A DNA stretch of 64,000 nucleotides from Candidatus Eubacterium faecigallinarum (GTDB lineage Bacteria > Bacillota > Clostridia > Oscillospirales > Acutalibacteraceae): contig DXDN01000008.1 of assembly GCA_019115455.1 (NCBI GenBank), forward strand, positions 100,042 to 164,041, given 5' to 3'. This document shows, one piece after another, positions 9,320-50,790 of the stretch. A program made the position numbers and the translations under genes. The notes under the pieces are model-generated. The model was not told where the DNA came from, ran no database searches, and was given only the letters and a program-made list of their open reading frames with translations. The stretch's first letter is position 1; each line of letters starts with the position of its first letter.

Positions 9320-9329
9320 AATAATCTCC

Positions 9330-30750: not shown

Positions 30751-30778
30751 AAAGCCGGAACGCTAACGTTCCGGCTTT
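30751..30778. terminator. Rho-independent terminator closing the polysaccharide operon
   Basis: aaagccggaacg-ctaa-cgttccggcttt perfect 12-bp stem with T-rich 3' side on both strands. Confidence 0.8.
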
Positions 30779-30785
30779 GTTTCAT

Positions 30786-31625
30786 CTAATAAGCTCTGTT
30801 GATATATCTGCCGTTGTCGCAGACTATAATCTCGCCTGAAATGCATTTGGACGCGTCGCTGAGCAAAAAACAGGCAACCTCCGCAACCTCCTCAGGCAGG
30901 TAAATTCTTTCCGCCGCCTGATACGAAGCATAAAGGTTATCTTCCCTGCTGTAACCTGTCATATCTGAGACGGTTACGCCCGGTGCTATTGCGTTTACTC
31001 TGATACCGCTTGAAATAACATCGCTGGCAAGACCCTGGGTGAGGCTGTTTACCGCCGCCTTTGTCAGCCCGTACGGAATGGTGTCCTTATACATTCCCCT
31101 TTCGGACGAAACAAAGAGCAGTGAGCCTTTAATTTCGTTTTCTTCAAGATAGGATATAAATTCCTTTGCCAAAAAGTAATTTGCTTTAAGGTTCGTATTC
31201 ATTTGAATATCAAACTGCTCCTGACTGACATTGCGGAAATTCCCTTCGTGAAGCGAAATTCCGGCGTTTAAAACAACGCTGTCAATGCGGTCGCCTGCAA
31301 GCTTCTCGGCTTTTTCTATAAGTGGTTTGTACGAGTCAAAGTCACACACATCGCACACTATATATCCGCTGTTTTTACCAAGCTTCTCGCAGGCTTCTTT
31401 AAGATTTTTTTCATTCCTTGAGGTAATAACAACAAATGCGCCCTCGTCAACACATTTTTTTGCAAAGGCATAACCGAGTCCCCTGCCGCCGCCGGTTATA
31501 AGAATTTTTCTGCCGGCGAGTCTTTCGTGAGGCGCAAGCACATAAATATCCGCCTTGACAATTTTATTATCAACACCGTGCAGAACATATTTCAGTCCGC
31601 GTTTAATATAAGTTTTTAAGCCCAT
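30786..31625 (-). CDS. SDR-family NAD(P)-dependent oxidoreductase with N-terminal amphipathic extension
   Basis: TGGGRGLGYAFA cofactor motif, NAGIS, SSERGMYKDTIPYGLTKAA (S..Y..K). Confidence 0.9.
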   Translation of the reverse strand: MGLKTYIKRGLKYVLHGVDNKIVKADIYVLAPHERLAGRKILITGGGRGLGYAFAKKCVDEGAFVVITSRNEKNLKEACEKLGKNSGYIVCDVCDFDSYKPLIEKAEKLAGDRIDSVVLNAGISLHEGNFRNVSQEQFDIQMNTNLKANYFLAKEFISYLEENEIKGSLLFVSSERGMYKDTIPYGLTKAAVNSLTQGLASDVISSGIRVNAIAPGVTVSDMTGYSREDNLYASYQAAERIYLPEEVAEVACFLLSDASKCISGEIIVCDNGRYINRAY

Positions 31626-31633
31626 AGGTACTC

Positions 31634-33343
31634 CTAACCGATCAAGTGTAATTTTCTCAATATTTTACCGACCTTTTTCTTGAATGCGCTTTTTTTAGTA
31701 TAGATTTTATTAACATCCCAAAACCGTTTTAAAACTGCGGCGTCGGTATCGGCATCGGTGAACACTTCCAAAATCACCGGTCCCTGAGAGGGTTTGATAA
31801 ATTCTGCAATGCCTTCTTCCAGCTGCTGACTGTTTTCGGCGCTCAGGTATCTGAAATCCGCCAGATGACTAAGCTGGGAGATCTTGGTGTGATGTGATGC
31901 CGCAATGTGGGTATTGAGTGTGGGTATTTGTTTAAGTCCGAAATTTTTATGGAATTCCGCACCGGCAAAATTGTTAATGACAAGTATATGCACGTTATCC
32001 GAGATTTTGTCAACAGCTGCATTTATATCATAAATAAAGCTAAGGTCGCCTGTAATGAGAAACGCCTCTTTGTCAGTTTTGCATGCCTGTCCTAGAAATG
32101 TTGAAAACGGACCGTCAATACCGTCACAGCCAAGATTGCCAAACACTCTTACGCTGGGATCGAGAGTAAAATAATTTGTTATTCTGATACTGTTTAAGAT
32201 ACTTAAATGCAGTATAGAATCCTTTGGAATATTTTTGACAAACTGACCTATTACATAGAAATTAGTAAAGCGAAGATCGGGATAAACCGCCTTTGAAAGC
32301 CTGTTTTTCCACTCGTTATAATAAACGTGGTCATTGGTGCCGTTTGCGTATGCGTTGATATTTTTGAAAAATTCAAGAGGAGTTGATTCAAAAACATCCG
32401 TCAATGTGATAAAGCCGTCGCTGAGTCTGCCCTGGGGGTCAACGCACCAGTGCTGAGCCTTTGACACAAGAGAATATTTCAGCCCGGACCACACCTGCGT
32501 GCCGATGCTTATCACCAGGTCACAGCCGATAAGTCCGTTATCATAGCTTGTAAGGGATTCAACCACATTGGACAGCTTTAGGAAATTTTCACCGTAAATA
32601 TTGGAGAAATAATCGTATGAAACAACAACGTTAAATTTTTTCTCAAATTTGGAAATTTCACTCGACAACGCTTCTGTATCCGTATGATTCTGACCGCAGA
32701 TTAAAAGAATCCTTTTCTTTTTACTGAGGTAATCAGCGTATTTTTTCCAGTCACAGTCAATGCCGTGGCGGCTGATTTTTCTGACTTCGGGCAATTTCTC
32801 GCAGGAAAAATTACCCAGATCAATTACCTCGTAATTTATCTGGACAGGTCCTTTAACATGGTGGTCAAGCTCAAGAAAAGCTTCATTCACTTCCCTTTCC
32901 ACATACCAGGAGTATTTCTCATTTCCTGCGTTTAGCTCAGGCAGATTTACTGCGTGGCGCGCATATTTGCCGTACATATTCACCTGGTCAATGGACTGAT
33001 CCTGCATGTGGTACAAAAATCTCTGGTTTCTGTCGGCAGTGAGGGCTACAAGGCAGATATTGCGCTCGTACGCTTCCTTAATTGCAGGCAGGTAATTGCA
33101 GGTAGCGGTTGCCGCCGTGCAGGTTACGCATACAGGCACGTCCAGCGCCTCGGCTATACCGAGTGCAAAGTATCCTGCGCTTCTCTCGTCAACAATTGAA
33201 TAGCACACAAAGAAATCGTCGTTTTCAACGCTGTGAACCAGCGGAGTATTTCTTGTTCCGGGAGAAATTACCAGGTGCTTTATATTATGCTTTTTGAGCA
33301 GTGCGATGATTATCTGCACTGTTTTCAGATTAGTATACATCAT
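31634..33343 (-). CDS. MenD-like thiamine-diphosphate-dependent enzyme in polysaccharide operon
   Basis: HLVISPGTRNTPLVHSVE, DERSAGYFALGIAEALDVPVCVTCTAATATCNYLPAIKEA, LVALTADRN, GCDGIDGPFST, GDLSFIYDINAAVD resemble MenD motifs. Confidence 0.85.
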   Translation of the reverse strand: MMYTNLKTVQIIIALLKKHNIKHLVISPGTRNTPLVHSVENDDFFVCYSIVDERSAGYFALGIAEALDVPVCVTCTAATATCNYLPAIKEAYERNICLVALTADRNQRFLYHMQDQSIDQVNMYGKYARHAVNLPELNAGNEKYSWYVEREVNEAFLELDHHVKGPVQINYEVIDLGNFSCEKLPEVRKISRHGIDCDWKKYADYLSKKKRILLICGQNHTDTEALSSEISKFEKKFNVVVSYDYFSNIYGENFLKLSNVVESLTSYDNGLIGCDLVISIGTQVWSGLKYSLVSKAQHWCVDPQGRLSDGFITLTDVFESTPLEFFKNINAYANGTNDHVYYNEWKNRLSKAVYPDLRFTNFYVIGQFVKNIPKDSILHLSILNSIRITNYFTLDPSVRVFGNLGCDGIDGPFSTFLGQACKTDKEAFLITGDLSFIYDINAAVDKISDNVHILVINNFAGAEFHKNFGLKQIPTLNTHIAASHHTKISQLSHLADFRYLSAENSQQLEEGIAEFIKPSQGPVILEVFTDADTDAAVLKRFWDVNKIYTKKSAFKKKVGKILRKLHLIG

Positions 33344-33344
33344 A

Positions 33345-34214
33345 TCAGTCCTTGTCCTTATCAACAAATATTACAGACGGACCTTCTGCCTGATTAAGCA
33401 TTTCGTCTGCCTGGCGGCTGAAATTCTTTTTATCCGCCAGTCTTATTTCAAATCCGTTAGATTCCAGCCAGGTCTTCATTTCATCATAATTTTCCGTACC
33501 GAACACGATGATTTTAACTTTATCCGACAGGTATCTGTTGTTAAAAATATTTATATCTATGTCAATAATATCAGGGGTTATTAAAAGCAGGCACCTCTTT
33601 GGACTTACAAGAGAATAGCCCATATATTTTGACAAAGCACCGTATTTATAGCGTCTGCTGACGGATTTGATTTCATAGCTGTATTCTTTTTTTAGCTCCG
33701 GATTGTAGCAAAACAGGATGTCGTCACTTGAAAGAAAAGAATCCAGCTCATCAAGTATATATCCGTAATCAACTGTTTTTTCCGTTTTCTGATTAAGAAT
33801 AACGGGGAGAACGGTGGGCTTAAATCTGTGCTCTTCAAACGGAAAGCCGTCCTCGGCATCGTCCTCTCTGACAGCATTCAAAACGTCGCAGCACCGCTCA
33901 AGATATCCGAGACTGAAATCCTCACCCTTTTGATAAACGGCAATTATCAGCAGCGGTATCTCCTGAAAGAACATTTCCGTAAGAGCTGTATATGTACTTT
34001 CAATGGCTGTACCGTCCATCAGCAGTACGGTTTTGCTGTTTGGAAGCTGCTTGGCAATTCCAAAGGCTCTGAAAGCACTGCTCCTGGCGTCGGTTACGAT
34101 TACGGGATTTTGCGAAAGGACGTATTCACTGTCCGCTTTTGAAATTTTATCTAACACATCACGGTTTACGACTAAATCGGAGGGAGTGCGAATTTCAAGT
34201 ATTTCTTTAATCAT
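33345..34214 (-). CDS. Uncharacterised protein, proposed degenerate ThDP-fold (Pyr + PP domains, no central domain)
   Basis: Visual correspondence 'DARSSAFRAFGIAKQLPNSKTVLLMDGTAIESTYTALTEMFFQEIPLLIIAV' to Pyr domain and 'GALSKYMGYSLVSPKRCLLLITPDIIDIDINIFNNRYLSDKVKIIVFGTENYDEM' to PP domain of MenD-like neighbour. ORF itself is clear. Confidence 0.55.
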   Translation of the reverse strand: MIKEILEIRTPSDLVVNRDVLDKISKADSEYVLSQNPVIVTDARSSAFRAFGIAKQLPNSKTVLLMDGTAIESTYTALTEMFFQEIPLLIIAVYQKGEDFSLGYLERCCDVLNAVREDDAEDGFPFEEHRFKPTVLPVILNQKTEKTVDYGYILDELDSFLSSDDILFCYNPELKKEYSYEIKSVSRRYKYGALSKYMGYSLVSPKRCLLLITPDIIDIDINIFNNRYLSDKVKIIVFGTENYDEMKTWLESNGFEIRLADKKNFSRQADEMLNQAEGPSVIFVDKDKD

Positions 34215-34223
34215 TTCTTTCTC

Positions 34224-35777
34224 CTACTGCGTAAATTTATTTAAAAATTTCAGCTTGTTTTTAGTAAGGCTGTTAACCATTGAAACCAGCGAAACAAATT
34301 CAGGACATTTCCTGTAAACAACAAACATTATGCCGTTTGGAACCACAAGGCAAACCAAAAGTCTGACGCATATCGTCAGCACGTTTGAATCAAAGGAAAT
34401 AAATTTCGATATACCGACGCAGACGGCGCCGCACACAACACAAACCGCCGTATATCCCAGCAGGCTGAGCACATACTTGAGGGGATTGCATTTGAATATC
34501 TCCGTAAAAACGTTGTGGATTATCCAGGGCATACCGACTATAAGCATACTTAATGCCGTGGAAAGCAATATGCCGTACAGTCCCCAGAACTGAACCATAA
34601 TAAGATTCATAATAAGATTAGCGGCTGCCGTTACAAGGGGTCTGAAACGGTCACGGTGCCATATTCCCGAAGCGTCCTTATACACGTTTAAAACGGCGTT
34701 TATTTCCTTAATAAAGAAATAGGCGGAAAACATGATGACCATTCCGTACGGCAGAAGGTTATCTTCGCCTACCCAAAGCTCCATAAACGGCTGATAAAGG
34801 CAAAGGAAACAGCACACGCTGAACACGGAAAGCCACGAAAAAATGAAGGTGAATTTCTTAAGGTCAATATAATTTTTTTCAGAGCTTTCGGTAACTATAC
34901 TATTGCCGATACCTGCAAGGCTTGAGCTTGTTATCAGGGTTATAAAGCCGTAAATGGTATTGAGAATAAAATAGTAATTTTGATATTTTGCCAGCGCCGT
35001 GAGTCCGAGAAAGGCAGAAATCACAATAGTATCGGCGGAATCCACAACAACCACGCCGACCTTTGAGGTAAAGAGGTCGCGTATCCTTCTGTTTATCAGG
35101 GATACCTCGCTTTTAGGCAATTTGCCCATTGCCTTGTACTGGGGATACATCCTGTTTACAACCAAAGCGGTAACTATGTTTGACGCGATATTGCTCAGAA
35201 GCATTACTATAATATAGACATAATAATCCTTTATGATAAACAGCACAAGAAGCTGGATTCCGTATTTTGCAGTATTCACGATATAGCCGATCTTATCGGT
35301 AACATCGTTACGTTGGTGAGCATATAAAAGGCAGTTCTTATATGCGAAAAGCCAGTAGGTAAATACGGTTGCCAGCAAGTTAATAACATAAAGCACATAA
35401 AGATTTACGTCAGGGGGCAAATCCTTTTTAACCAGCATGGGAAGTGCCGGCATAATACACAGACCGAGTCCGAGTATAACTGCACCTATGATACGATAGT
35501 ATATTTTATACAATCGCATCAGGGCGCAGATTTTTGCGCTGTCACCCTCGGCAATGGGTTTATACATACTGAAAGTCATAGCGGTGCCGACTCCCAGCTC
35601 TGCAAGGTTCAAAACAGACAAAACAGACGTAAAGAGGCTGTTGAGTCCCAGATATTCCATACCCAGCAGGTATATCATCGCCGTTCGCATTAAAAACGGT
35701 ATTACAATGTTATATATTTTGGTTATCAATCCAAAGAACAGATTTCTTGCCGTGTTCTTCGTACGGTTATACTTCAT
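34224..35777 (-). CDS. Polysaccharide flippase (Wzx/MATE-like, MOP superfamily)
   Basis: ~12-14 TM; 'NLFFGLITKIYNIVIPFLMRTAMIYLLGMEYLGLNSLFTSVLSVLNLAELGVGTAMTFSMY'. Confidence 0.92.
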   Translation of the reverse strand: MKYNRTKNTARNLFFGLITKIYNIVIPFLMRTAMIYLLGMEYLGLNSLFTSVLSVLNLAELGVGTAMTFSMYKPIAEGDSAKICALMRLYKIYYRIIGAVILGLGLCIMPALPMLVKKDLPPDVNLYVLYVINLLATVFTYWLFAYKNCLLYAHQRNDVTDKIGYIVNTAKYGIQLLVLFIIKDYYVYIIVMLLSNIASNIVTALVVNRMYPQYKAMGKLPKSEVSLINRRIRDLFTSKVGVVVVDSADTIVISAFLGLTALAKYQNYYFILNTIYGFITLITSSSLAGIGNSIVTESSEKNYIDLKKFTFIFSWLSVFSVCCFLCLYQPFMELWVGEDNLLPYGMVIMFSAYFFIKEINAVLNVYKDASGIWHRDRFRPLVTAAANLIMNLIMVQFWGLYGILLSTALSMLIVGMPWIIHNVFTEIFKCNPLKYVLSLLGYTAVCVVCGAVCVGISKFISFDSNVLTICVRLLVCLVVPNGIMFVVYRKCPEFVSLVSMVNSLTKNKLKFLNKFTQ

Positions 35778-36861
35778 TTAAACCTAAAGCACCTTTCAGA
35801 TAATTATAGGCTTTTTCTCTGTCCTTACTCCAGACAGATGACACATTATTATAATTCTTATAAAAAATATTTTCAACATTTTCCGCAGTATTTCCTGTAC
35901 ACCAGTCAGAAATTCCGATTTCGCCGAAAAGCTGCTCCATTCTGCTATTCATACTGCCCACAATATTTTCAACCCTTTCAAAACATCGGAACGGTTTGTC
36001 CATTATTATTGAAAAAATACTGCCGTGAAAAGAATCGGTAAACATTATTTCGCAATTAGCGGCAAGCCACACGAACTCATCCGGCGAAAAGCGAAAATGG
36101 TGCATATTCTTAATTTTATCAACATTTGTCCACTCGTGATAAAGGTCAATTATTTCAAGGCCGTACTTTTCCGCCACCCTGTCGATAAAGCTCTGGATAT
36201 CGCTGTCGATACCGTCAATACCGCCGAGAAAGTATGTTAATATGTATTTCCTTTTTTTATTTACGCATTTTGGCTTTTTAGCTATTTTCATCCATTCTGA
36301 TCTTGAGAGCATTATTGTCGGGTCGACGGTAACACCGACTTTCCGACCGGCAAGCTCATAAATAATATCTGCGCCCTTTTGTTCTCTGACGGAGATACTT
36401 TTCATCTCGCTGACGCCTTTGATAAAATCTTCCCTATACTTCGGCTCAATCTCGTCGCAGCTTATACTTGCCGAGTACGCTATTCTTTTTTCAGGAGGTA
36501 CGAATCTTGCAAAATAAAGGTCCCTTTTCTCCCATATCGTATCCCACTTAAAATTCCATATTTGGTCTGAGCCGCAAACAGCATAATCAGCATCAGGCTG
36601 ATGATTTTTTACGCAATGAATATATTTTCTGTTAAATTTATTGAAGCCGTAAAATCTGCTGTCCCTGCAATAACTGCCGCGCTTAATTATATATTTGATT
36701 ATCCTTTTAAGTTCAAATTTTAAAGCGTCAAATCCTATCGGGCAGGCGTTATATGTGACAGCGTCCACACCCAGTTTAAACAGCACCTGCTCAACAGCGT
36801 AATTTTGCAGGCGGTTTCCATAATTCGTTTCACCTGTAATTGTAATTATTTCAGCTTTCAT
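35767..36861 (-). CDS. Polysaccharide pyruvyl transferase family protein
   Basis: ITITGETNYGNRLQNYAVEQVL..YAVCGSDQIWN..MFTDSFHGSIFSIIMDKPF; ATG at 36861. Confidence 0.92.
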   Translation of the reverse strand: MKAEIITITGETNYGNRLQNYAVEQVLFKLGVDAVTYNACPIGFDALKFELKRIIKYIIKRGSYCRDSRFYGFNKFNRKYIHCVKNHQPDADYAVCGSDQIWNFKWDTIWEKRDLYFARFVPPEKRIAYSASISCDEIEPKYREDFIKGVSEMKSISVREQKGADIIYELAGRKVGVTVDPTIMLSRSEWMKIAKKPKCVNKKRKYILTYFLGGIDGIDSDIQSFIDRVAEKYGLEIIDLYHEWTNVDKIKNMHHFRFSPDEFVWLAANCEIMFTDSFHGSIFSIIMDKPFRCFERVENIVGSMNSRMEQLFGEIGISDWCTGNTAENVENIFYKNYNNVSSVWSKDREKAYNYLKGALGLNEV

Positions 36862-36874
36862 AATCTGCTCCTGA

Positions 36875-37831
36875 TTATCCGAAATATTTAAATTTTTTGT
36901 ACGTCTTGTAAATGAATTTAAAATTACAAAGAAGTACAGCAAACAGCTTTTCAACACGGGTAAAATAAGAATCATTTAAGATAAAGCTCTTATATTTTTT
37001 TATCCTGTCGATTGCTTTGAGGCTAAACTCCTTGCCCTTTTTATAGACAATATAATCGTCTGCCGCCTTTATCCAGTATTTATATGCCCATCTTACCACA
37101 TAATCTTTGGTACGGCTTTCCGCAATATTTTCCAGGAAATAATCAATGAGCCCTATCATTTTAAAATCATTTTCAACAGGCTTTAATCTCATTACTGAAT
37201 CTTGCCTATATGTATAATCATAGCCGCAGAGCTTCACCAGTGACACATCTGAAATATGACTTAGATATTCAAAATTAAATAAAGTATCCTCGCACATAGA
37301 AAGCTCTTCGCTAAACTGAACGCCGTATTTTTTTACGTCATCAAGGAGATAAAGCTTGTTCCATACAAAGCCCTCAAATTCCGGATGCTCCTTGATATTA
37401 AACATATCTTCAAGCGCCTGAGCGGCTGAAATCACTTTATCCTCTGACGGTATAAACTTATTTTCGGCAAGAGTATACCCGCACGCCGCAAGCTGTGTGC
37501 CGTCATTCTGAACTGCATTGACGAGCTTTTCAAACATATCGGGCAAAACGCAGTCGTCGCCGTCAACAAATCCCACGTACTTGCCTATGGCGGCGTTTAG
37601 TCCGGCATTTCTTGCTGATGATACTCCGCCGTTTGCTTTATGTATAACTCTGATACGTTGGTCCTTTTCTGCCCAGAAATCACATATCTGAGGTGAGCCG
37701 TCGGGAGAACCGTCGTCAACAAGAATTATATCAAGATTTTTATACGTCTGGCTTACTATGCTTTTGACGCATCTGTCAAGATAATCCTCAACTTTGTACA
37801 CGGGCACAATTACAGTAATAATATCTTCCAT
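36875..37831 (-). CDS. GT2 family glycosyltransferase
   Basis: ITVIVPVYKVEDYLDRCVKSIVSQTYKNLDIILVDDGSPDGSPQICD. Confidence 0.93.
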   Translation of the reverse strand: MEDIITVIVPVYKVEDYLDRCVKSIVSQTYKNLDIILVDDGSPDGSPQICDFWAEKDQRIRVIHKANGGVSSARNAGLNAAIGKYVGFVDGDDCVLPDMFEKLVNAVQNDGTQLAACGYTLAENKFIPSEDKVISAAQALEDMFNIKEHPEFEGFVWNKLYLLDDVKKYGVQFSEELSMCEDTLFNFEYLSHISDVSLVKLCGYDYTYRQDSVMRLKPVENDFKMIGLIDYFLENIAESRTKDYVVRWAYKYWIKAADDYIVYKKGKEFSLKAIDRIKKYKSFILNDSYFTRVEKLFAVLLCNFKFIYKTYKKFKYFG

Positions 37832-37835
37832 TATT

Positions 37836-38819
37836 CTACCCCGCCTTACGTCCGCTATAAAGTAAATAAAGCACCCTGAATCCTCCGGGACATGCTTTGA
37901 TAAACGATACAGCCGCCGCCTTAAATCCGCTTACATCAGGCAGTTTTTTAAATACTGAGCTGTACAGTTTAATTTCGTCAGTCAGTGAGCTGTAGTTTTC
38001 AGCAATTAGGGATTTATTGCCGCTGGATAAAAGCTGCTTAATGCAGGTTAAAAGCTGGTTAAGATAAATTTCAAGGCAATGCTCGTAAACAGCGCGGTTG
38101 CTTTTTTCATTTTCAAGAATTATTTTATACACTCGCCATCTGTTAATAAAATCAGCATTTACATTACCTGTTGCGGAATTATCCCTGTCAACATAATAGT
38201 TATACAGAACATAATCAGTAACGACTATCTTTTTGCAGTATTTAAAATAGTAATAGTTAAAAAGGAAATCCTCGCCCACATTAAACTGCTCATCAAAAAA
38301 TATTTTATCATCCCTGATAACGGACATCCTGTAAAGCTTGTTCCAAACACAGCAGACCTCAAATTTCTCCTTGCCGTCAAAAGGAACAAATCCGTACTGA
38401 GTTTCAATCACCTTGGCAGGATATATAGCATCCTGTGATATTATGCCGCCGTCATTAACACGGTTATAAGCGCACACAGCCACATCGGCGTTATTTTTTT
38501 CTATCTCTTCTAAAAGTGTTTCATACATTTGGGGCTCGATATAATCGTCGCCGTCCACAAAAGCGATATATGTACCCGTTGCCTGAGTGATTCCTGCATT
38601 TCTTGCAGAGGATACGCCGCCGTTTTCTTTATGTATAACCTTTATTCTTTTATCTTCAGCGGCAAATCGGTCGCATATAATTGGACAATTGTCCGTTGAA
38701 CCGTCGTCAACAAGGATTATCTCAAGGTCCTGACAGGTTTGGTTTGTTATTGATTTTACACAACGGTCAATATATTTTTCAACATTATATACGGGAACTA
38801 CAACACTAATTTTATTCAT
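37836..38819 (-). CDS. GT2 family glycosyltransferase
   Basis: ISVVVPVYNVEKYIDRCVKSITNQTCQDLEIILVDDGSTDNCPIICDRF. Confidence 0.93.
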   Translation of the reverse strand: MNKISVVVPVYNVEKYIDRCVKSITNQTCQDLEIILVDDGSTDNCPIICDRFAAEDKRIKVIHKENGGVSSARNAGITQATGTYIAFVDGDDYIEPQMYETLLEEIEKNNADVAVCAYNRVNDGGIISQDAIYPAKVIETQYGFVPFDGKEKFEVCCVWNKLYRMSVIRDDKIFFDEQFNVGEDFLFNYYYFKYCKKIVVTDYVLYNYYVDRDNSATGNVNADFINRWRVYKIILENEKSNRAVYEHCLEIYLNQLLTCIKQLLSSGNKSLIAENYSSLTDEIKLYSSVFKKLPDVSGFKAAAVSFIKACPGGFRVLYLLYSGRKAG

Positions 38820-39829
38820 TATTCGGCTCCTGACAATCTACTGTATTTTTTTGCTGAGTATGTGCCGTAAATTTTCATAATATGACTATATGTTCTTGGA
38901 ACAAGCCAAAGTATAAGTGTACGTAACTTTGCAGAGCGGGCATAAAGATTGCTTTTAAATATCTCCGACTTATGTTCAATGATCCGTTTACGGATCTGTG
39001 GATAGTATTCGGTGCAGCTTGAGCTTACAAACATCTGCTTTATGGTTCTGAAGCTTTTCATCACATCGCCCTTAACGCAGTATTGCATAAGCTCGCTGTT
39101 TGACTTTGCATAGCCGAAAATTATATCCATAACCCTGTGTTCATCAAATCTCGCCTCTGAAAACGCTTTATTTGATGCAGAAGTTTCATTATTTGTGTAA
39201 TGGTATCTTGCCACATTATGTATTACGATTTTACGCATATTCCTTGCCGCTTCAAAATTAAAAAGAGTATCCTCGGCATATTTGAAATTAGTATTAAACC
39301 TGACGTTCTTCAGTATTTCGGCGCTGTAAAGCTTATTACCGGTATGAACAGGCAGGATACCGTTTGCCTCACCGACGGCTTTAAGCCATGGCAGTGTATC
39401 GACACACTCAACAGGGCTGTCTGCACTGCCCCACTCTTCCTTATAGCCGTTTTTGCTCTCCCTTACCATACCGCAGGAAGCGGCGTCAGCATTGTGCTCG
39501 CATATCTCTGCGTACATTATCTCATACATATCAATGTCGATATAATCATCGGCGTCAACAAAACCGATATACTCGCCTGTTGCGGCGTCAAGCCCTGCAT
39601 TTCGGGCAGATGACGCTCCGCCGTTTTGCTTATGAATAACCTTGATTCTGTTATCACGAAGCGCCCATTCATCACAAAGCGATCCGCTGTTATCCTTAGA
39701 ACCGTCATCCACCAGCAAAATCTCCAGATTATCATAAGTCTGGTTTACGATACTGTTTATGCAGTTATCAAGATATTTTTCTACGTTATAGACGGGAACT
39801 ATCACTGAAATCTTAGGTCTGCTGTTCAT
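38819..39829 (-). CDS. GT2 family glycosyltransferase
   Basis: ISVIVPVYNVEKYLDNCINSIVNQTYDNLEILLVDDGSKDNSGSLCDEW. Confidence 0.93.
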   Translation of the reverse strand: MNSRPKISVIVPVYNVEKYLDNCINSIVNQTYDNLEILLVDDGSKDNSGSLCDEWALRDNRIKVIHKQNGGASSARNAGLDAATGEYIGFVDADDYIDIDMYEIMYAEICEHNADAASCGMVRESKNGYKEEWGSADSPVECVDTLPWLKAVGEANGILPVHTGNKLYSAEILKNVRFNTNFKYAEDTLFNFEAARNMRKIVIHNVARYHYTNNETSASNKAFSEARFDEHRVMDIIFGYAKSNSELMQYCVKGDVMKSFRTIKQMFVSSSCTEYYPQIRKRIIEHKSEIFKSNLYARSAKLRTLILWLVPRTYSHIMKIYGTYSAKKYSRLSGAE

Positions 39830-40733
39830 TCACTTTATCTCCGATATAATCACGAATTTTATAAACAATCTCTTTATCAAGGTGCATACTGAACTTTCTG
39901 GCAAACATTGCCGGAGAGGAAATTATGCTTTCAAAATCCTCAGACGTGAAGGTATACGGATTGCCCCTTTGCCAGTCGATATATCTTGCGCAGGCAAGCT
40001 GATTATTATTGCAATGCGGCATATATAACCTGTCTTTAAAAGGGGAATTCATAAATATTGTCTGGAGGAAAACCTCGTCACAGCAGTAGGAATAGCTGAA
40101 GATTTTTTTGATTTCACTTTCCTTGGACACAACATAGTTAGCAAAATCATCGGTAATACTAAACCAATTTGTCCCCTTCCAGACATTAATCGGCTCGTTC
40201 TTAAGGCGGTTTACACCCAGGATTTTTTGAGCCATAAGAGCAAACTGAGCCAAAATCTTGTAAAACAGATTTCGATTTGACCTAAAGATATGATAATACC
40301 TGACTCGGGACATAGCAGAGCGGGACGGCTCATCCTCTGAAAAATGGATGAATTCTTTGCCCTGATGTTCTGCAAAAAAGCGGTGAATCTCGTCATTTGT
40401 CTTTATTGGGAGGTCACAGCCTGACAGCAGATGAAAATACGCATACCTGTTTCGGTTAATTTCATTTTTTACTGCCGCCTTAAGCAGTATCATTTCCGCT
40501 TCTATTTGGGAATAGTCGCCCCAGGTCACTGATATTCTGTCGGTAAAAAATAATCCGGCATGCTTTGTCAGCGAGACAAATTCGTCGGCATTAAAATCCT
40601 GTGCCTTTGAATCCACATGTACATATATATCATTTCTCTCGTCGTCGAGCATGGTTATAAGAATTTTTAAAAGATCAAACTGGTCGTGTGCTATGATCAT
40701 AAAAGCATGCTTTGCCGTCAATATAATCAACAC
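39813..40733 (-). CDS. Core-2/I-branching-type (GT14) beta-1,6-N-acetylglucosaminyltransferase family protein
   Basis: AFMIIAHDQFDLLKILITMLDDERNDIYVHVDSKA..YFHLLSGCDLPIK..WKGTNWFSITDDFANYV. Confidence 0.9.
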   Translation of the reverse strand: MLIILTAKHAFMIIAHDQFDLLKILITMLDDERNDIYVHVDSKAQDFNADEFVSLTKHAGLFFTDRISVTWGDYSQIEAEMILLKAAVKNEINRNRYAYFHLLSGCDLPIKTNDEIHRFFAEHQGKEFIHFSEDEPSRSAMSRVRYYHIFRSNRNLFYKILAQFALMAQKILGVNRLKNEPINVWKGTNWFSITDDFANYVVSKESEIKKIFSYSYCCDEVFLQTIFMNSPFKDRLYMPHCNNNQLACARYIDWQRGNPYTFTSEDFESIISSPAMFARKFSMHLDKEIVYKIRDYIGDKVNEQQT

Positions 40734-40758
40734 CTTTACTGTTCAAAATACAAATCCG

Positions 40759-41688
40759 TTATATAAACTTATTATACAAATGGGGCATAAGCCATAAAAC
40801 AATTGTTTTGATCCTGTCCCTTTTGCTGTATAGCTTAGACGTTAATATTTCTTTTTTATATTTAAGTATGCCGTTTCTCAGTTCATCATATCTTTCATAG
40901 AATTTGCCGTTTGTTATCACTGCGCTGAGCACTGCAAAACACGATTTAACATAACCGAAAACGGCATACGGTCTGAGCCAGCCCTCAAGCTCATTATCTG
41001 AAAGAATGATCTCCTTGGACCTTACGGCATCAAATGCGCCCTCGTCAAAATTAGAATTTGTAATACTCTCGTCATTCTTGATATAGTGATACAGCTTGTA
41101 ATCCGATTCAGCCACATTCTTTGCGTTTTTTAACGCCATATAATTATATACAAGGTCTTCACAGCAAACCAAATCCTGCATAACAACATTCTCAACCACC
41201 CGACGGCGGTAAAGCTTGTTCCATAAAACGCCGAACTTATAATCTCCTTTTACTGTTTCCTTTTGGGCGTCGGCGGCGGGTATTACTCTGAGTGAATGAC
41301 TCCCCCGCTCCTCAGAATTTATCTGAAAGCCGCACACCGCTATATCACAGCCGCCGGAGGTTATATCATTTATAAGGCACTCATACATATCAAGCTCAAT
41401 ATAATCGTCGCTGTCAACAAATCCGATAAACTCACCTGTGGATATGCTGACTCCCTTATTCCTTGCATTGGCGACGCCCTTGTTCTCGATATGGAGCACT
41501 TTTATCCTGTCATCCTTTGCCGCCCATTCGTCGCACATGGCAGGGCAGTTATCAGGGGAACTATCGTCAACAAGTATTATTTCAAGATTCTTATATGTTT
41601 GCTGTGTAATGGTTTTTACGCATCTGTTAAGGAATTTTTCCGTACCGTAAACGGGCACAATTACGCTTATCATCGAATCGGTATTCAT
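40759..41688 (-). CDS. GT2 family glycosyltransferase
   Basis: ISVIVPVYGTEKFLNRCVKTITQQTYKNLEIILVDDSSPDNCPAMCDEW; ATG at 41688. Confidence 0.93.
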   Translation of the reverse strand: MNTDSMISVIVPVYGTEKFLNRCVKTITQQTYKNLEIILVDDSSPDNCPAMCDEWAAKDDRIKVLHIENKGVANARNKGVSISTGEFIGFVDSDDYIELDMYECLINDITSGGCDIAVCGFQINSEERGSHSLRVIPAADAQKETVKGDYKFGVLWNKLYRRRVVENVVMQDLVCCEDLVYNYMALKNAKNVAESDYKLYHYIKNDESITNSNFDEGAFDAVRSKEIILSDNELEGWLRPYAVFGYVKSCFAVLSAVITNGKFYERYDELRNGILKYKKEILTSKLYSKRDRIKTIVLWLMPHLYNKFI

Positions 41689-42707
41689 AAAAACCTCCTG
41701 AGCAAATGGATATAACAATAAAGAAGATTAGTATTTTTAGAAGATATAAAGCCTGCCACAAATCTTGTATGCAGCGGCAGCAGACTGCGGTCTATAAACC
41801 TTGCGGAATTTAAAACATCCGGATTATTTATAAATTTCTTTAATGTGTTTTTAATCTCAGCGGGCGTTTTTTTATTGCCGGGATTTGCCTCGTTTCTTAT
41901 CATCATATTTACAAGATAAATCAGATAATAGCTTAGCTGAGCAGATAAATTATAATCATAATCCGCAAATGCCTTTTTAAGTATTTCATACGGAATTAGG
42001 ATAGTATCCTCCATATCCCTGCTGTACGCCTTTGTCATGGATTCGGGGTTTACCCTGTAATTATAAAGGCTTTTTTTGACATAAGCGGCGCTGTTTGCCA
42101 AGAGCAGACACGGATAAGTAAATGCCGCATCCTCCCCCACTCTTATTTGGGGAGTAACTTTATAAAGGCACTTTTCAAGCAGTTCTTTTTTAAAGAGCTT
42201 GCTCCAGCAGCAGGGAAAAATCCCGAATTTATAAAACGATTTGTTGAAAAGCATGTTCGGATACAGCTTTTTTTCCATATCTTTTTTATCGTAAAATTCA
42301 GCAGAAAGTATCTGGCTGCTGGCGACTTTTTTATCGGGGTACGCAAAATAAAACTCGCACATGGCAATATCGGGATTATGCGCCTTTACAGCCGAGTAAA
42401 ATGACTCATACATATCGGGCTCTATCCAGTCGTCGCCGTCAACAAACCCTACATATTCGCCGCAGGCAATTTTAAGCCCTGCCTGACGTGCGGACATAAG
42501 CCCACCGTTTTCTTTATGTATAACCTTTATTCTTTTATCTTCGGCGGCAAAACGGTCACATATCTCAGGACAGTCGTCCGTTGAGCCGTCGTCAACAAGA
42601 ATTATCTCAAGGTCCTGATAGGTCTGGTTGATGATGCTTTCTATGCACTTTTCTATATATTTGCCGACATTATATACGGGCACTATTATACTAAACATAC
42701 AGGACAT
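41685..42707 (-). CDS. GT2 family glycosyltransferase
   Basis: FSIIVPVYNVGKYIEKCIESIINQTYQDLEIILVDDGSTDDCPEICDRF. Confidence 0.93.
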   Translation of the reverse strand: MSCMFSIIVPVYNVGKYIEKCIESIINQTYQDLEIILVDDGSTDDCPEICDRFAAEDKRIKVIHKENGGLMSARQAGLKIACGEYVGFVDGDDWIEPDMYESFYSAVKAHNPDIAMCEFYFAYPDKKVASSQILSAEFYDKKDMEKKLYPNMLFNKSFYKFGIFPCCWSKLFKKELLEKCLYKVTPQIRVGEDAAFTYPCLLLANSAAYVKKSLYNYRVNPESMTKAYSRDMEDTILIPYEILKKAFADYDYNLSAQLSYYLIYLVNMMIRNEANPGNKKTPAEIKNTLKKFINNPDVLNSARFIDRSLLPLHTRFVAGFISSKNTNLLYCYIHLLRRFL

Positions 42708-42716
42708 AAATTCACC

Positions 42717-43724
42717 TCAAGCCTTTGCAATCTCACGTTTTTTTGAAAAGAGCTTTTTTATTCTGTAAACTGCATAGTAAACCGCAACCGACGTTACTAC
42801 AGCAATAAGAGGTCTCAGCCACTCATACACTGACGTATAGTAAAAGCCGGTAAGAGTGCTTAATTTATCAGTCGCGTGGGATGCAAAAATATGAATAACA
42901 TAAATATAAAGAGATAAATCGGACGGAATGTTAACCCTGCTTTTTTTACTTAAATTGGTGCTGTTTATGTAAACTGCAAGGGCAAAAAGCGAAACGGCTA
43001 TTAACACTGAGCCCAAATATAATTCGCTGTTCCTGCTGAGAAAAATAAATTCGGCAATATTAATAACTATTCCTGCCAGAAGCAGAATTACGATATATGT
43101 ATTGATATTTTTAATTCTCTGCCAGTCGAACTTTCTCATACAGTAGCCCACAGAAAAGAACGGAAGACCGATCATAAGAAAATTCCTGCAAAAGAGCATC
43201 GACACTTCCATCTGCATTTTGCCCATAATAATATTGAAATAAATCAATGTTAAAATCAAAAGAAACGGAAGGAATTTAAAAATCTTAGTTATACGCAGCT
43301 TGATGATAAGTGCAGTAACAAGATAAACGTAAATAAGCGCCGACAAAAACCACAGATGACCAAAGGAAGTCGTAAACGGAAGATTAAAAACAAGTGTTTT
43401 AAGATACATATCAGGCATAGCAAAATTGCTGAAAAAGCTCTGCAAAAACGGTATGCCGTATAAAATTGTATAGCCTATTATATAAACAAGCAAAGATACA
43501 GCGAAAATTACCGCTATATGCGCTGTGCGTTTTTTTAATTTAGCCATATCGCCCTCATTTATAAGGCGGTATGAAAAATACCCCGACGATATAAAGAATA
43601 CGGGCACCGCAAATCGCGCGGCGGCACTTGCAATCTCACCTGCTGTACCTGGCAGACATATATGAATAAATACAACAAACAGCGCTGAAACAAGTCTAAG
43701 ACAATCTAAATCACGATTTCTCAT
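42717..43724 (-). CDS. Acyltransferase 3 family membrane protein
   Basis: RNRDLDCLRLVSALFVVFIHICLPG; ~10 TM. Confidence 0.88.
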   Translation of the reverse strand: MRNRDLDCLRLVSALFVVFIHICLPGTAGEIASAAARFAVPVFFISSGYFSYRLINEGDMAKLKKRTAHIAVIFAVSLLVYIIGYTILYGIPFLQSFFSNFAMPDMYLKTLVFNLPFTTSFGHLWFLSALIYVYLVTALIIKLRITKIFKFLPFLLILTLIYFNIIMGKMQMEVSMLFCRNFLMIGLPFFSVGYCMRKFDWQRIKNINTYIVILLLAGIVINIAEFIFLSRNSELYLGSVLIAVSLFALAVYINSTNLSKKSRVNIPSDLSLYIYVIHIFASHATDKLSTLTGFYYTSVYEWLRPLIAVVTSVAVYYAVYRIKKLFSKKREIAKA

Positions 43725-43753
43725 ATTTTCTTAGTAAATCCCCAATAAATAAA

Positions 43754-44953
43754 TTAAAAATGCATCCAGTTAAGTGAGCTGCCCGTACACAGATACCACA
43801 GGTGGACAGAAGTATAACCGAAAAATGCCAAAACGAAAATTGATCTTGTTTTGAGTCTCAGCGTTTCCCCAAACGGTCCGTCATATGCATAGCTTGCCGG
43901 CATTTTCCTGATGCTTTCGGACTGAAACTGCATGCCTGTCATAAACAGCAAAGAGCCGATTACAGGTATAATCCATCTTGCAAACCTTACAAACACCAGA
44001 CCGCTGTAAAGCGTTCCCAGCATAAAAAACATAATAATGAGCGAAAATTTATAAAATTTCTTTATGTCACCGTAAAGCTCGCTCCTGTTTATATACCATG
44101 AAACATAAGCGATAACAGCCGCCACAAAAACGTATGTTGCCAGGTTTACATAAAACATGGTTCCTGAATCCAGCGATTCGGCAGCGGCATTTACCTCAGC
44201 CTTACCGGCAACAGACTGAATAAAGCTGTTGTCAGTGATTGTGGCAAGAAACTGAATAAGAGCACTGCCTCCGGCAAGACCGAAAACTAACAGAACGTTA
44301 ATTGCATTTCCTTTTACATTACATGTCAAAAGCGCAAGAATTATCAGCGCCACCAACATTATACCGGCGGAGTGGGTAAAGCATGCCGCCGCATAGCCTA
44401 ATATGCACAGGAATATATTTTTCTTTTCCACAAGATGATAATATGCGCACGCTATAATAACGGCAAACGCAAGACCGTTTCTTACACCGGATGCGGTATC
44501 GTAATACCAGTATGTGGCAAGAAAAAACATCGTGCCGAGATAGAGGCACCATTTTGCAACGCCGAATTTCCTTGACGCCTTATAAAATACAAGGAACATA
44601 AGTCCATATACGATAAATATGGTTACCGCCGACATATAGTGATTGTCAGGGAATAAACTTATAAAATAAAAGTAATATGCACAGACACGATATGTCTGCC
44701 AGTTGTTATTATTGGTCTCAATAAGGTATAAAAGTCCGTCATAGCCTCGTTCCCGCAGATAATCAAGGTGCTCGTAATAGCGCGTAAGATCATCGGTCGG
44801 GTTTGGCTCCATGTTAAATGCCAGAACCGCAAGCAATATAACAACAACTGAAAAAACAAACCAAACATGTTTCTTTGGGATTATCCAAAACAGCACAGTA
44901 TATATGGCTATAATCACAACAAAACATTCAATGGCAGTTAAACCAAAAAACAT
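43754..44953 (-). CDS. EpsG-family polysaccharide polymerase
   Basis: Multi-TM, 'PTDDLTRYYEHLDYLRERGYDGLL', 'WYYDTASGVRNGLAFAVII'. Confidence 0.85.
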   Translation of the reverse strand: MFFGLTAIECFVVIIAIYTVLFWIIPKKHVWFVFSVVVILLAVLAFNMEPNPTDDLTRYYEHLDYLRERGYDGLLYLIETNNNNWQTYRVCAYYFYFISLFPDNHYMSAVTIFIVYGLMFLVFYKASRKFGVAKWCLYLGTMFFLATYWYYDTASGVRNGLAFAVIIACAYYHLVEKKNIFLCILGYAAACFTHSAGIMLVALIILALLTCNVKGNAINVLLVFGLAGGSALIQFLATITDNSFIQSVAGKAEVNAAAESLDSGTMFYVNLATYVFVAAVIAYVSWYINRSELYGDIKKFYKFSLIIMFFMLGTLYSGLVFVRFARWIIPVIGSLLFMTGMQFQSESIRKMPASYAYDGPFGETLRLKTRSIFVLAFFGYTSVHLWYLCTGSSLNWMHF

Positions 44954-44966
44954 TATATATTTCCTC

Positions 44967-46088
44967 TCATCTTAAAGATGTATAAATCTTTGCTAATTTT
45001 CCGCCGATGGCTTTGATATCGTACTCTTCAATCACACGGCTTCTGTCCACAGATTCCCTGTCGCATTTAAGAGCGTTTTCAATTTCAGCACACCACACTG
45101 AGGGCGGCGACTCCAGGGATACGAAAGACAGATTGTCGTTAAGTTTGACAGCAGGGGTTATACGGCTTGACACAACGCAGGGCAGTTTGCTCGACTGAGC
45201 TTCAATCAGCGTAAGCGGGAATCCCTCGTGCAGTGACGGAAAGACCATACAGTCCATAGCCAAGAGCATACGCCAAACGTCGTCCCTGACGCCGGCAAAA
45301 ATAACGCTGTCATCAAGGTTTAAGCCTTCAACCTTTTCCCTGAGCATTGCCTCATCTTCGCCTGAGCCCACAAGAAGCAGGACGGAAGATTCATTATTTC
45401 TATGAAATTCACTGAATATATCAATCAGAAAAGACTGATTTTTTATATGATTAAAATGTCCGATATGTCCCAACACGGTTTTATCGGAAATGTTGAATTC
45501 TTCTCTTATATCATTTCTCTGCTTTGAGCTGAAAACATAAAGACTTGTATCAACTACGTTGTTAAGCACAATACCTTTGTGCTTTAAAAAGCCTTTGCCG
45601 CTGAGGAAAATTCCGCTCTCTACACTGCATCCGATAATATCGGTGGCATATTTGCGGATAATTTTTCTCATGACGATTCTATACAATAACGCAATAAAGC
45701 GTTTGACAGCCGACCTGCCCTGGGTCAGCGGCTTTGAAAAATGAGAATGTGCTATTCTCTTTTTAATATTATTTTTGTAAGCGGCTTTCAAAACTATTCC
45801 GCTGTAAAACATCTGGTGGCTGTGAACTATATCAAAATGCTCGTTTTTAAACAGCCTGTCATAATATTTATAGCTTTTAAAATAATTTAACTCGCTGTCA
45901 GGCTGATGGATTATACGAATTCCCCTTTGAGCCAGCTCGTCCTCCATGGCACCTTTTTTCTCAGACCTTACAGAAAAAACACATTCAAATTTTTCGCTAT
46001 CCAGCGCCTGTCCAAATCTGACCGCCGCCATTTCCATACCGCCGCGGTCAAGGGTATCGGTAACAATTAAAACCTTAAGCCTACTCAT
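44967..46088 (-). CDS. GT4 family glycosyltransferase
   Basis: DTLDRGGMEMAAVRFGQALD..VFPSLHEGFPLTLIEAQSSKLPCVVSS; ATG at 46088 after GGAG. Confidence 0.92.
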   Translation of the reverse strand: MSRLKVLIVTDTLDRGGMEMAAVRFGQALDSEKFECVFSVRSEKKGAMEDELAQRGIRIIHQPDSELNYFKSYKYYDRLFKNEHFDIVHSHQMFYSGIVLKAAYKNNIKKRIAHSHFSKPLTQGRSAVKRFIALLYRIVMRKIIRKYATDIIGCSVESGIFLSGKGFLKHKGIVLNNVVDTSLYVFSSKQRNDIREEFNISDKTVLGHIGHFNHIKNQSFLIDIFSEFHRNNESSVLLLVGSGEDEAMLREKVEGLNLDDSVIFAGVRDDVWRMLLAMDCMVFPSLHEGFPLTLIEAQSSKLPCVVSSRITPAVKLNDNLSFVSLESPPSVWCAEIENALKCDRESVDRSRVIEEYDIKAIGGKLAKIYTSLR

Positions 46089-46117
46089 ATAAACTCCATA
46101 ATCCACAAACCTAAATA

Positions 46118-47191
46118 TTATTTTCTGTAAAAATCTGCAAGAATCTTTGCATTATCATAAATATCCCAGCCATGCTGTGCCACTGTAACGGACAAGTCTT
46201 TGCGCTCTTTGTCTGACATTTCAATAAGCACATCTGCCCATTTTTGAGCGTCGGTATCAAGGGAAAGCCGAGTTACATTATCCGTGACGCAAACCTCTTT
46301 TGTTACAGAATCGGACATCACAACAGGCAAACCGCTTGCCTGCGCTTCAATCACGGACACGGGAAGGCCCTCGCTTATAGACGGGAACAGGAAAGCATCG
46401 CACGCCTGAAGAAGCTCGCAGATATCCGTTCTGCTGCCAAGGAATCGCACGCTGTCCTCAACACCGAGCTCTTTGCACAGATTGGCAAGCTCCTCTGTTT
46501 TGTCGCCGCCCATTAAAAGCAGTACAGAATTTCCGCGCTGTGCTTTGATTTTTGAAAATACGGTTATAAGAAACTTATGATTTTTCTGAGGGATACCTGT
46601 TCTGCCGATATGACCTACTACAAAGGAATCATCAAGTCCCATTTGAGCACGCTTACTGCTGCGTTTAACCTTGTCATAAGCATATGCCTTGCAGTCAACT
46701 GCATTATTTAAAACATTAAATTTTTTGCCTGAATACCAGAACTTTCCTGCCTCGTCGCTACAGGCAAACCTGTTTTTTATGCAATACTTGGCATATGTAC
46801 TGAGCAGTTTATTTCTGGAAGAATGACCTTTGAGTGAATAGCAGGTGGAATGGCAGTGAACTGCGATTTTATCAATGCCGTGCTTTTTTGCATACGGTGC
46901 GATAAAGACTGCAAAATGCGGGCAATGGATATGCAGTGCCGACCACTCGCCTCGGTGTGCTTCAAAAAAAGAATCCATCTTGCCGCTGAAAAAATCAGAC
47001 GGCGACGGCGAATCAACTTTAAACACTCTTCCCCCCAGCGCCTCAATATCTGCCTGTCTGGTCTGCTGAGTCCGGGCGAAGTATACAACGTCAAATTTGA
47101 TGTCTTCCGGCATTGCTTTAAAATAATTTAAAATAACGCTCATTATGCCGTTTGAAACGCCTATATCAGAAATCATCTGTAAAATTCTCAT
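46118..47191 (-). CDS. GT4 family glycosyltransferase (EpsF-like)
   Basis: GVSNGIMSVILNYFKAM..FLFPSISEGLPVSVIEAQASGLPVVMSD. Confidence 0.92.
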   Translation of the reverse strand: MRILQMISDIGVSNGIMSVILNYFKAMPEDIKFDVVYFARTQQTRQADIEALGGRVFKVDSPSPSDFFSGKMDSFFEAHRGEWSALHIHCPHFAVFIAPYAKKHGIDKIAVHCHSTCYSLKGHSSRNKLLSTYAKYCIKNRFACSDEAGKFWYSGKKFNVLNNAVDCKAYAYDKVKRSSKRAQMGLDDSFVVGHIGRTGIPQKNHKFLITVFSKIKAQRGNSVLLLMGGDKTEELANLCKELGVEDSVRFLGSRTDICELLQACDAFLFPSISEGLPVSVIEAQASGLPVVMSDSVTKEVCVTDNVTRLSLDTDAQKWADVLIEMSDKERKDLSVTVAQHGWDIYDNAKILADFYRK

Positions 47192-48330
47192 ATCAGATTT
47201 AATTCCTTGTAAATTTTTATCATCTGGTCAATAACACTTTCGGTTGAATAAGCTTTAACATCAGTTAGGTTCTGTGCCTTAAATTTATCCATAATATCAG
47301 GGTTTTCAATAAGTTTAATAATTCTGTCTGCCATTGCGTCAGAATCACCCAGAGAAATTAAAAAGCCGTTTTCGCCGTCTTTTACAAGATCACGGTTTCC
47401 CCTGACGTCCGTGGCGACAATTGCATTACCAACAGCCATAGCTTCTATCAGATTTACGGGAAGACCTTCCCTGTTGCTGGCGGAAACAGACACATCGGAA
47501 AGCCCCACAAGCTTTTCAATATCACGTCTGTAACCCAAAAACTCAACCTTGTCTGAAATATTAAGCTCTTTTACCATCATTTTATACTGAGGAGCGAGCT
47601 CCTCCTGACCGGGACAAAGCAGTCTGATGAAATCATATTTCTCAGCCACCTTTTTTACTGCGTTAAAGAGCATGGGATGATTTTTTCCGGCGGTGAGATT
47701 CGCAGGATAAACCAGTATAAAATCATTGTCGCTGTATCCGTACTCACTTCTCAGGCGGCTTTTTTCTTCACGGGCGACGGGATGGAATTTACTTATATCC
47801 ACGCCGACTCCGTTTACCTTAAATATTTTACCGGCTTTGAAACGGCGGTTAACAGCGTTATCATAATCCTCCTGATTTATTGTTATCAGGCAGTCGGTAT
47901 ATTTTGAAAGATACTTTTCCACGGGGTAAAACAACAGCCAGTTCTTTTTTGAAGCGCCGTTGTAAAAATGGAATCCGTGAGCTGTATAGATAACTTTTGT
48001 ACCCCTCTTCGCCGCATCTTTGGATGCAAGACGAGTCACAACCGAGCCCATGGGAGTATGGCAGTGCACGGCGTCATATCCGTTTTCGTCAATTATTTTT
48101 TTCAGTATTTTATATGCTTTGATATTGTCAGCGCTGTAAGGACTCCTGGAAAAAGGCACCTCAAACACCTTGTCAATGTCTGAAAGGTCAAGTCCCGGCT
48201 TTTCGTCAGAATTATCTTTAAACGCAGCATGAACAACACAACCCCGCTGCTTGAGCGCTGTAATGAACGGCATATGAAATTGTCCTATATGGCTGCGCAC
48301 CGTGGCAACAAACAATACCTTCATCATCAT
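47188..48330 (-). CDS. GT4 family glycosyltransferase (EpsD-like)
   Basis: VLFVATVRSHIGQFHMPFITALKQRG..VSASNREGLPVNLIEAMAVGNAIVATDVRGNRDLV. Confidence 0.92.
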   Translation of the reverse strand: MMMKVLFVATVRSHIGQFHMPFITALKQRGCVVHAAFKDNSDEKPGLDLSDIDKVFEVPFSRSPYSADNIKAYKILKKIIDENGYDAVHCHTPMGSVVTRLASKDAAKRGTKVIYTAHGFHFYNGASKKNWLLFYPVEKYLSKYTDCLITINQEDYDNAVNRRFKAGKIFKVNGVGVDISKFHPVAREEKSRLRSEYGYSDNDFILVYPANLTAGKNHPMLFNAVKKVAEKYDFIRLLCPGQEELAPQYKMMVKELNISDKVEFLGYRRDIEKLVGLSDVSVSASNREGLPVNLIEAMAVGNAIVATDVRGNRDLVKDGENGFLISLGDSDAMADRIIKLIENPDIMDKFKAQNLTDVKAYSTESVIDQMIKIYKELNLI

Positions 48331-49238: not shown

Positions 49239-49261
49239 ATTAGTAGTACCTGCTTTTTTTA

Positions 49262-50705: not shown

Positions 50706-50790
50706 AAAATTTCCTTCATCTTTCACTACTTAGTCACATGGCCGCAAAATCCCACAATGTGGCAATAAAAAAAGCAATCATATCCATATA

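Follow-up and report, generated by a model that had tools for sequence, protein, structure and literature searches.

The stretch of DNA analysed here (the window) comprises 64,000 nucleotides of contig DXDN01000008.1 of Candidatus Eubacterium faecigallinarum, part of a 1.71-Mb assembly that is 98% complete, and carries a polysaccharide operon of about 20 kb whose last genes include a homologue of the menaquinone enzyme MenD. The operon is a single-strand run from 50726 to 30786 that encodes a sugar-1-phosphate transferase, about nine glycosyltransferases, EpsG, an acyltransferase, a PF04230 polysaccharide pyruvyltransferase (PYT) and the flippase Wzx, with a companion protein, the MenD-like thiamine diphosphate (ThDP) enzyme and a short-chain dehydrogenase/reductase (SDR) at its 3' end. 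The present data place the MenD-like enzyme in a recurrent group of polysaccharide-locus paralogues of MenD that is tied to PF04230 proteins and to carbonyl reductases. The features of the locus are as follows.

30751..30778, minus strand: terminator-like hairpin directly after the SDR gene, closing the operon (12-bp GC-rich stem, T-rich tail); a consensus match only, and the plus strand scores as well
30786..31625, minus strand: classical SDR, a ketoreductase candidate (PF13561, E=6e-47; TGGGRGLG and YGLTK motifs)
31634..33343, minus strand: MenD-like ThDP enzyme, PYR-TH3-PP (TIGR00173, E=1.9e-70; ThDP and Mg residues intact, substrate pocket altered)
33345..34214, minus strand: companion, a predicted pseudo-ThDP protein that lacks TH3 and whose PYR and PP domains are degenerate
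34224..35777, minus strand: Wzx-type flippase (68% identity to the Wzx at the same place in congener G462)
35767..36975, minus strand: PYT of family PF04230 (E=5e-35)
36875..50726, minus strand: remaining polysaccharide operon (glycosyltransferases, a Core-2/I-branching glycosyltransferase, acyltransferase, EpsG, 2-hydroxyacid dehydrogenase, sugar phosphotransferase, HpcH/HpaI aldolase)

A preliminary description of this DNA had noted three tightly packed genes at the end of a glycosyltransferase operon, and this holds with gaps of 1 to 9 nt: 9 nt between the Wzx and companion genes, 1 nt (or 4) between the companion and MenD-like genes and 8 nt between the MenD-like and SDR genes. These gaps take a corrected start for the MenD-like gene. 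The open reading frame (ORF) finder gave 31634-33367 with a TTG start at 33367, but the true start, as judged from related proteins, is the ATG at 33343 or 33340, because homologues begin MYTNIK.. and gactgatATGATGtatact places it there. The true start of the PYT probably lies downstream of 36975, because the ORF overlaps the preceding family-2 glycosyltransferase (GT2) gene; the protein reaches 122.1 bits against PF04230, above the Pfam gathering score of 25.3.

The MenD-like protein shares with MenD (SEPHCHC synthase, TIGR00173) the PYR-TH3-PP fold, the ThDP glutamate, the Mg2+ site and R395, together with R33 and R107 in the window's subgroup. However, it scores 238.3 bits on TIGR00173, under the curated cut-off of 244.2, and differs further in its long basic C-terminal tail and in its setting, a polysaccharide locus in which no menaquinone genes were found. 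In E. coli MenD numbering, used throughout for the substrate residues, the ThDP residues Glu55, Asp442-Leu443 and Asn469 are kept (as E61, D441-L442 and N466 of the window protein). On the isochorismate side R33 and R107 are present, K292 is absent and I474 has become Glu, and among the residues that hold the 2-oxoglutarate carboxylate R395 is present, with both S391 and R413 replaced by Leu. Work on Bacillus subtilis MenD assigns isochorismate recognition to the residues corresponding to R33 and R107 and chiefly 2-oxoglutarate binding to the one corresponding to R413, with a share in both for the counterpart of R395 (PMC2914249). In the Listeria monocytogenes MenD structure the intermediate formed from 2-oxoglutarate is contacted at its carboxylate by the counterparts of S391, R395 and R413 (PMC12312563); the residue matches between species are our own assignment from alignments.

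These substitutions are not peculiar to the window. A tree of 93 homologues, drawn from the host family and from species-representative genomes, plus E. coli MenD cleanly parts the sequences adjacent to menF, menB or menE from those in polysaccharide loci. The latter group holds 50 sequences after removal of one duplicate, from genomes of Clostridia, Bacteroidota, Actinomycetota (Collinsella, Bifidobacterium), Bacilli, Proteobacteria and a Verrucomicrobiota type, and by its sequence the window gene is a member of this clade of paralogues rather than a stray menD. Across the clade the ThDP residues are nearly all retained (E55 in 50/50, Q118 and D442 each in 49/50, N469 in 47/50), while K292 survives in 1/50, S391 in 6/50 and R413 in 5/50, and I474 is Glu in 37/50; among the 43 true MenDs all of these positions are invariant or nearly so. 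Within the window's subgroup (n=13) the pattern is uniform, with R33, R107 and R395 kept, R413 and S391 lost and Glu in place of I474 in all 13. The donor in this subgroup is thus probably not 2-oxoglutarate, because none of the 13 members retains R413 or Ser391, the residues that grip the distal carboxylate of that substrate, and the residues kept and lost suggest that the acceptor still bears a carboxylate.

The absence of other menaquinone genes, first remarked for the window, extends to the whole assembly: menB, isochorismate synthase and menA were not found in it by searches that gave matches in well-known control genomes. Nor does the assembly hold a second menD; the matches to the menD hidden Markov model (HMM) are the MenD-like protein, the companion and one weak match in a 561-aa frame elsewhere. 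A role in menaquinone synthesis was rejected, since the men genes searched for are absent, the pocket residues are changed and the clade is separate; it is nearly certain that the enzyme serves polysaccharide modification instead. Its assignment to polysaccharide assembly in the preliminary description is borne out by the separate clade and by the loci in several phyla, and of the two findings that would have spoken against that description, a men pathway in the genome and a want of recurrence, neither was encountered.

The neighbouring genes of the 50 clade loci were clustered without preconceptions, and the strongest association to emerge, which the preliminary description had missed, is that with PF04230. 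This family is the most widespread partner, present as a separate gene in 31 loci, where 23 of its 33 copies lie at ±1 from the MenD-like gene against a uniform expectation of about 5. It is fused to the MenD-like protein in 13/50, the fusions falling on two distinct branches of the tree, with the PF04230 part N-terminal in the fusions checked and example fusions confirmed by Pfam. Fused or within five genes, PF04230 accompanies 42/50 clade members, in contrast to 0/42 true menD loci. The classical SDR is the most position-specific partner (21/50 loci, all at ±1), and loci without it carry instead an extended-SDR/epimerase-like protein (about 10 loci), a zinc alcohol dehydrogenase or an aldo/keto reductase, so that an NAD(P)H oxidoreductase from one of four families adjoins the MenD-like gene in most loci. 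In locus L032 (9218-11407) an extended-SDR/epimerase-like reductase is itself fused to a PF04230 pyruvyltransferase beside the MenD-like gene. Because reductase families swap in the same place, the ThDP product is suggested to be a carbonyl awaiting reduction. In addition, the unfused MenD-like proteins end in a basic C-terminal tail (median 51 aa, versus 22 aa in true MenD; net charge about +5 over the last 30 residues) that the PF04230-fused members do without, and nearly all MenD-adjacent SDRs begin with a basic N-terminal stretch of about 35-70 additional aa, about 40 aa in the window SDR. Such tails fit work at the membrane surface or within a complex. The conserved module is not the MenD-like enzyme, companion and SDR first proposed; it is PF04230, the MenD-like enzyme and an interchangeable reductase. 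As for the recurrence of that first trio, the MenD-like gene and the SDR do recur together in surface-polysaccharide loci of several phyla, whereas the companion was met in one other sampled species.

Some loci of the clade show further arrangements. Directly after a PF04230-MenD-like fusion, L031 (213-2099) encodes DUF6270 fused to a zinc alcohol dehydrogenase, a possible clue to the function of DUF6270. A 1296-aa protein in L034 (9564-13454) combines two PF04230 domains with a divergent MenD-like domain in which GDL is changed, and is flanked by two further PF04230 genes; its ThDP part may be degenerate. In L039, L040, L042, L044 and L067 a recurring pair of genes of about 155 and 165 aa immediately precedes the PF04230-MenD-like gene and resembles, as judged by reading the sequences, a split (Alg14/Alg13-type) glycosyltransferase.

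Taken together, these associations make it likely that ThDP ligation followed by ketoreduction is functionally coupled to PF04230. They also allow the construction of a fuller and more tentative scheme, which we hold to be somewhat short of an even chance, by which a PF04230 pyruvyltransferase, a MenD-paralogous ThDP ligase and an NAD(P)H ketoreductase modify the lipid-linked repeat unit. The scheme proposes that in the cytoplasm the pyruvyltransferase places a pyruvate-derived, carboxylate-bearing group from phosphoenolpyruvate (PEP) on a sugar of the undecaprenyl-diphosphate-linked repeat unit, whereupon the MenD-like enzyme may decarboxylate a 2-oxo acid other than 2-oxoglutarate and add the acyl carbanion to the pyruvate-derived group or to its sugar, leaving a ketone. 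The SDR would then reduce this ketone, and Wzx would export the modified unit. The first step has precedent in that the PF04230 enzymes WcfO and CsaB pyruvylate lipid-linked precursors with PEP as donor, and the window PYT, a clear member of the family, resembles the characterised CsaB, WcfO and ExoV, which act on such precursors (PMC6801904); what sets it apart is that members of its kind stand next to a ThDP ligase and a reductase in these loci, or are joined to them in one protein, and ketal formation by it is putative. ThDP ligation followed by ketoreduction is likewise known from glycans, where YerE and ErwE take part in the synthesis of branched sugars (PMC12247030, PMC4753412).

Several observations weigh against this scheme. 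No PF04230 gene lies within five genes in 8/50 loci, an adjacent reductase is absent from about a quarter, and in the window itself the PYT is parted from the MenD-like gene by Wzx and the companion. The GT2 genes of the same loci also often adjoin PF04230 (15/50, compared with 20/37 for MenD-like; Fisher p=0.03), partly because GT2-PYT-MenD is a common order, and as the loci are related by descent, such counts are not phylogenetically independent and the p-values are indicative only. The branch that joins the PF04230-fused subclade is weakly supported (0.306), and this subclade may do other chemistry because R395 has largely been lost from it. The basic tails could serve protein docking, not membrane binding. 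Further, the products for which PF04230 enzymes are known are ketals, which offer no acceptor for a ThDP carbanion.

It is possible, if unlikely, that the PF04230 member instead forms an enolpyruvyl ether on a lipid-linked sugar, to which the MenD-like enzyme would add a decarboxylated 2-oxo acid by a Stetter-type 1,4-addition, with the reductase converting the ketone so formed to an alcohol and, in the window, the pseudo-ThDP subunit tuning the reaction. The signature reaction of MenD is a 1,4-addition to an unsaturated carboxylate (PMC2914249), and an enolpyruvyl ether would, speculatively, be an acceptor of the kind that this addition needs; the kept R33 and R107 could hold the acceptor carboxylate, and the lost R413 would reflect a donor other than 2-oxoglutarate. 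The expected product is an open-chain, ether-linked hydroxy acid grown on a sugar by C-C bonds. A structure of this type may exist in the ether-linked nononic acid of the Streptococcus thermophilus 8S exopolysaccharide (PMC9912281, PMC12413058): in formal terms, glucose carries on O6 a lactic-acid ether that has been lengthened through a C-C bond, the type of product to be expected where an enolpyruvyl ether receives an acyl group and is then reduced. However, one review derives this acid from a nonulosonic acid.

Among the alternatives to modification of a pyruvyl-derived group, the best placed is a synthesis of branched sugars in the manner of YerE, in which the MenD-like enzyme would acylate a nucleotide-bound keto sugar, the SDR would reduce the branch and PF04230 would act independently elsewhere in the repeat unit. 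Yersiniose- and erwiniose-type sugars of cell-surface glycans are known to be made by pairing a ThDP C-C ligase with a carbonyl reductase (PMC12247030, PMC4753412), and ErwE takes 4-hydroxy-2-oxo acids, the product type of the HpcH/HpaI aldolase encoded at 49881-50726. However, no nucleoside diphosphate (NDP)-sugar 4,6-dehydratase is present in the window operon and none stood out among the recurrent neighbours, where no NDP-keto-sugar genes were recognised, and the fusions to PF04230, a tie particular to the present loci, would be left unexplained. The ThDP family also differs: judged by family profiles, the window protein belongs to the MenD family and not to the acetolactate-synthase/YerE-like enzymes, matching acetolactate-synthase-like families weakly (E about 1e-5) against 1.9e-70 for menD. 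The aldolase is found in 28 of 80 congeners, in 3/4 with the MenD-like gene and in 25/76 without it (Fisher p=0.12), and as an obligate supplier of the donor it was rejected for want of a reliable link to the MenD-like gene within the genus. We consider this branched-sugar route rather unlikely. The aldolase gene, on the minus strand, opens the operon and is followed by the sugar phosphotransferase and D-2-hydroxyacid dehydrogenase genes; its orthologues in the 27 other congeners share 46-70% identity, and one also occurs in a Streptococcaceae metagenome-assembled genome that carries a MenD-like gene.

Somewhat less probable again is that a free small hydroxy acid or acyloin arises from the MenD-like enzyme and the reductase and is attached to the glycan later, with the PF04230 member transferring that product and not pyruvate. 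The fusions and the adjacency would be accounted for, and many PF04230 members are uncharacterised. However, PF04230 enzymes of known activity take PEP as donor (PMC6801904), a ThDP enzyme makes no enol phosphate, and the basic tails suggest work bound to a surface or a complex.

The companion requires separate consideration. It had been taken for a degenerate ThDP-fold protein, a reading confirmed by profile matches to both PYR and PP and by lost motifs: its PYR part matches the menD HMM (E=2.4e-5), and hhalign comparisons with the MenD-like profile recover PYR from a two-companion profile (E=5.6e-9) and PP from the window companion alone (E=9e-8). The catalytic Glu has become Ala (DARSS) and GDLSF has become TPDII, and both companions lack the TH3 domain, carry DAR in place of DER and have lost the Mg2+ motif (TPDII and TTDCL). 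The second companion, the one clear relative in a search of 80 genomes of the genus, is that of G462, where the order PYT-Wzx-companion-MenD-like-SDR repeats that of the window. No companion was found in 200 genomes of the family, where the only matches were the MenD-like proteins themselves, or in the wider genome contigs searched with a single-sequence query. In G428 a 264-aa ORF between the MenD-like gene and Wzx was rejected as a companion, being membrane-protein-like. A 196-aa ORF at 8917-9507 of congener locus L131, between Wzx and the companion, is possibly the remnant of a second flippase. The AlphaFold2 models of the companions are poor (pLDDT 56 and 62), and Foldseek searches with them return mostly ThDP enzymes, first among the hits, at low TM-scores that carry little weight. 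By these comparisons the companion is a conserved pseudoenzyme with a ThDP fold that stands outside the widespread module. It is improbable that it acts directly in catalysis: because the PYR Glu and the PP Mg site are both gone, it could not complete the MenD-like active site in the usual way, and its service as a complementing catalytic half was rejected as unlikely. Within the pyruvyltransferase-ligase-reductase scheme, it may act as a subunit without catalysis of its own, giving the MenD-like oligomer its shape or regulating it. Whichever chemistry applies, the companion could alternatively be a decaying duplicate without function, as it is the fastest-evolving of the five genes (30% identity between the two species, compared with 46% for PYT, 68% for Wzx, 52% for MenD-like and 65% for SDR), is present in just 2/4 MenD-like carriers of the genus and has lost both catalytic sites. 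However, it is full-length and open in both species, in the same gene order and a few nt from the MenD-like gene, with the same Glu-to-Ala change, and decay therefore seems improbable. Least tenable is a relict or moonlighting MenD still engaged in menaquinone synthesis, which the near-cut-off TIGR00173 score (238 versus 244) and the kept R33, R107 and R395 would favour, but which the lack of menB, isochorismate synthase and menA from a 98%-complete genome, the changed K292, S391, R413 and I474, and the separate clade in polysaccharide loci render exceedingly improbable.

The context of the MenD-like enzyme is thus real and recurrent, and the mechanism is incomplete. The MenD-family ThDP ligase and the glycan module of ThDP ligase plus ketoreductase are known, and the reaction is possibly new; no description of a MenD-like polysaccharide module was found among openly licensed papers, a body of literature from which most subscription articles are missing. 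MenD homologues in many capsule and exopolysaccharide loci of gut bacteria may be misread as vitamin K2 enzymes, and the present comparison sets a large clade apart by sequence, active site and context and provides it with a testable pathway. Were the proposed scheme to hold, the known routes to surface polymers would come to include the decoration of lipid-linked glycans through C-C bonds made by a ThDP enzyme, unexplained ether-linked acids in bacterial polysaccharides would gain a genetic handle, and carbohydrate synthesis would gain a new ligase family; the companion would count as a ThDP-superfamily pseudoenzyme. A gene shortly downstream of the operon, at 26377-29892 on the minus strand, encodes a 1171-aa protein in which a family-2 glycosyltransferase is joined to a CDP-glycerol glycerophosphotransferase domain.

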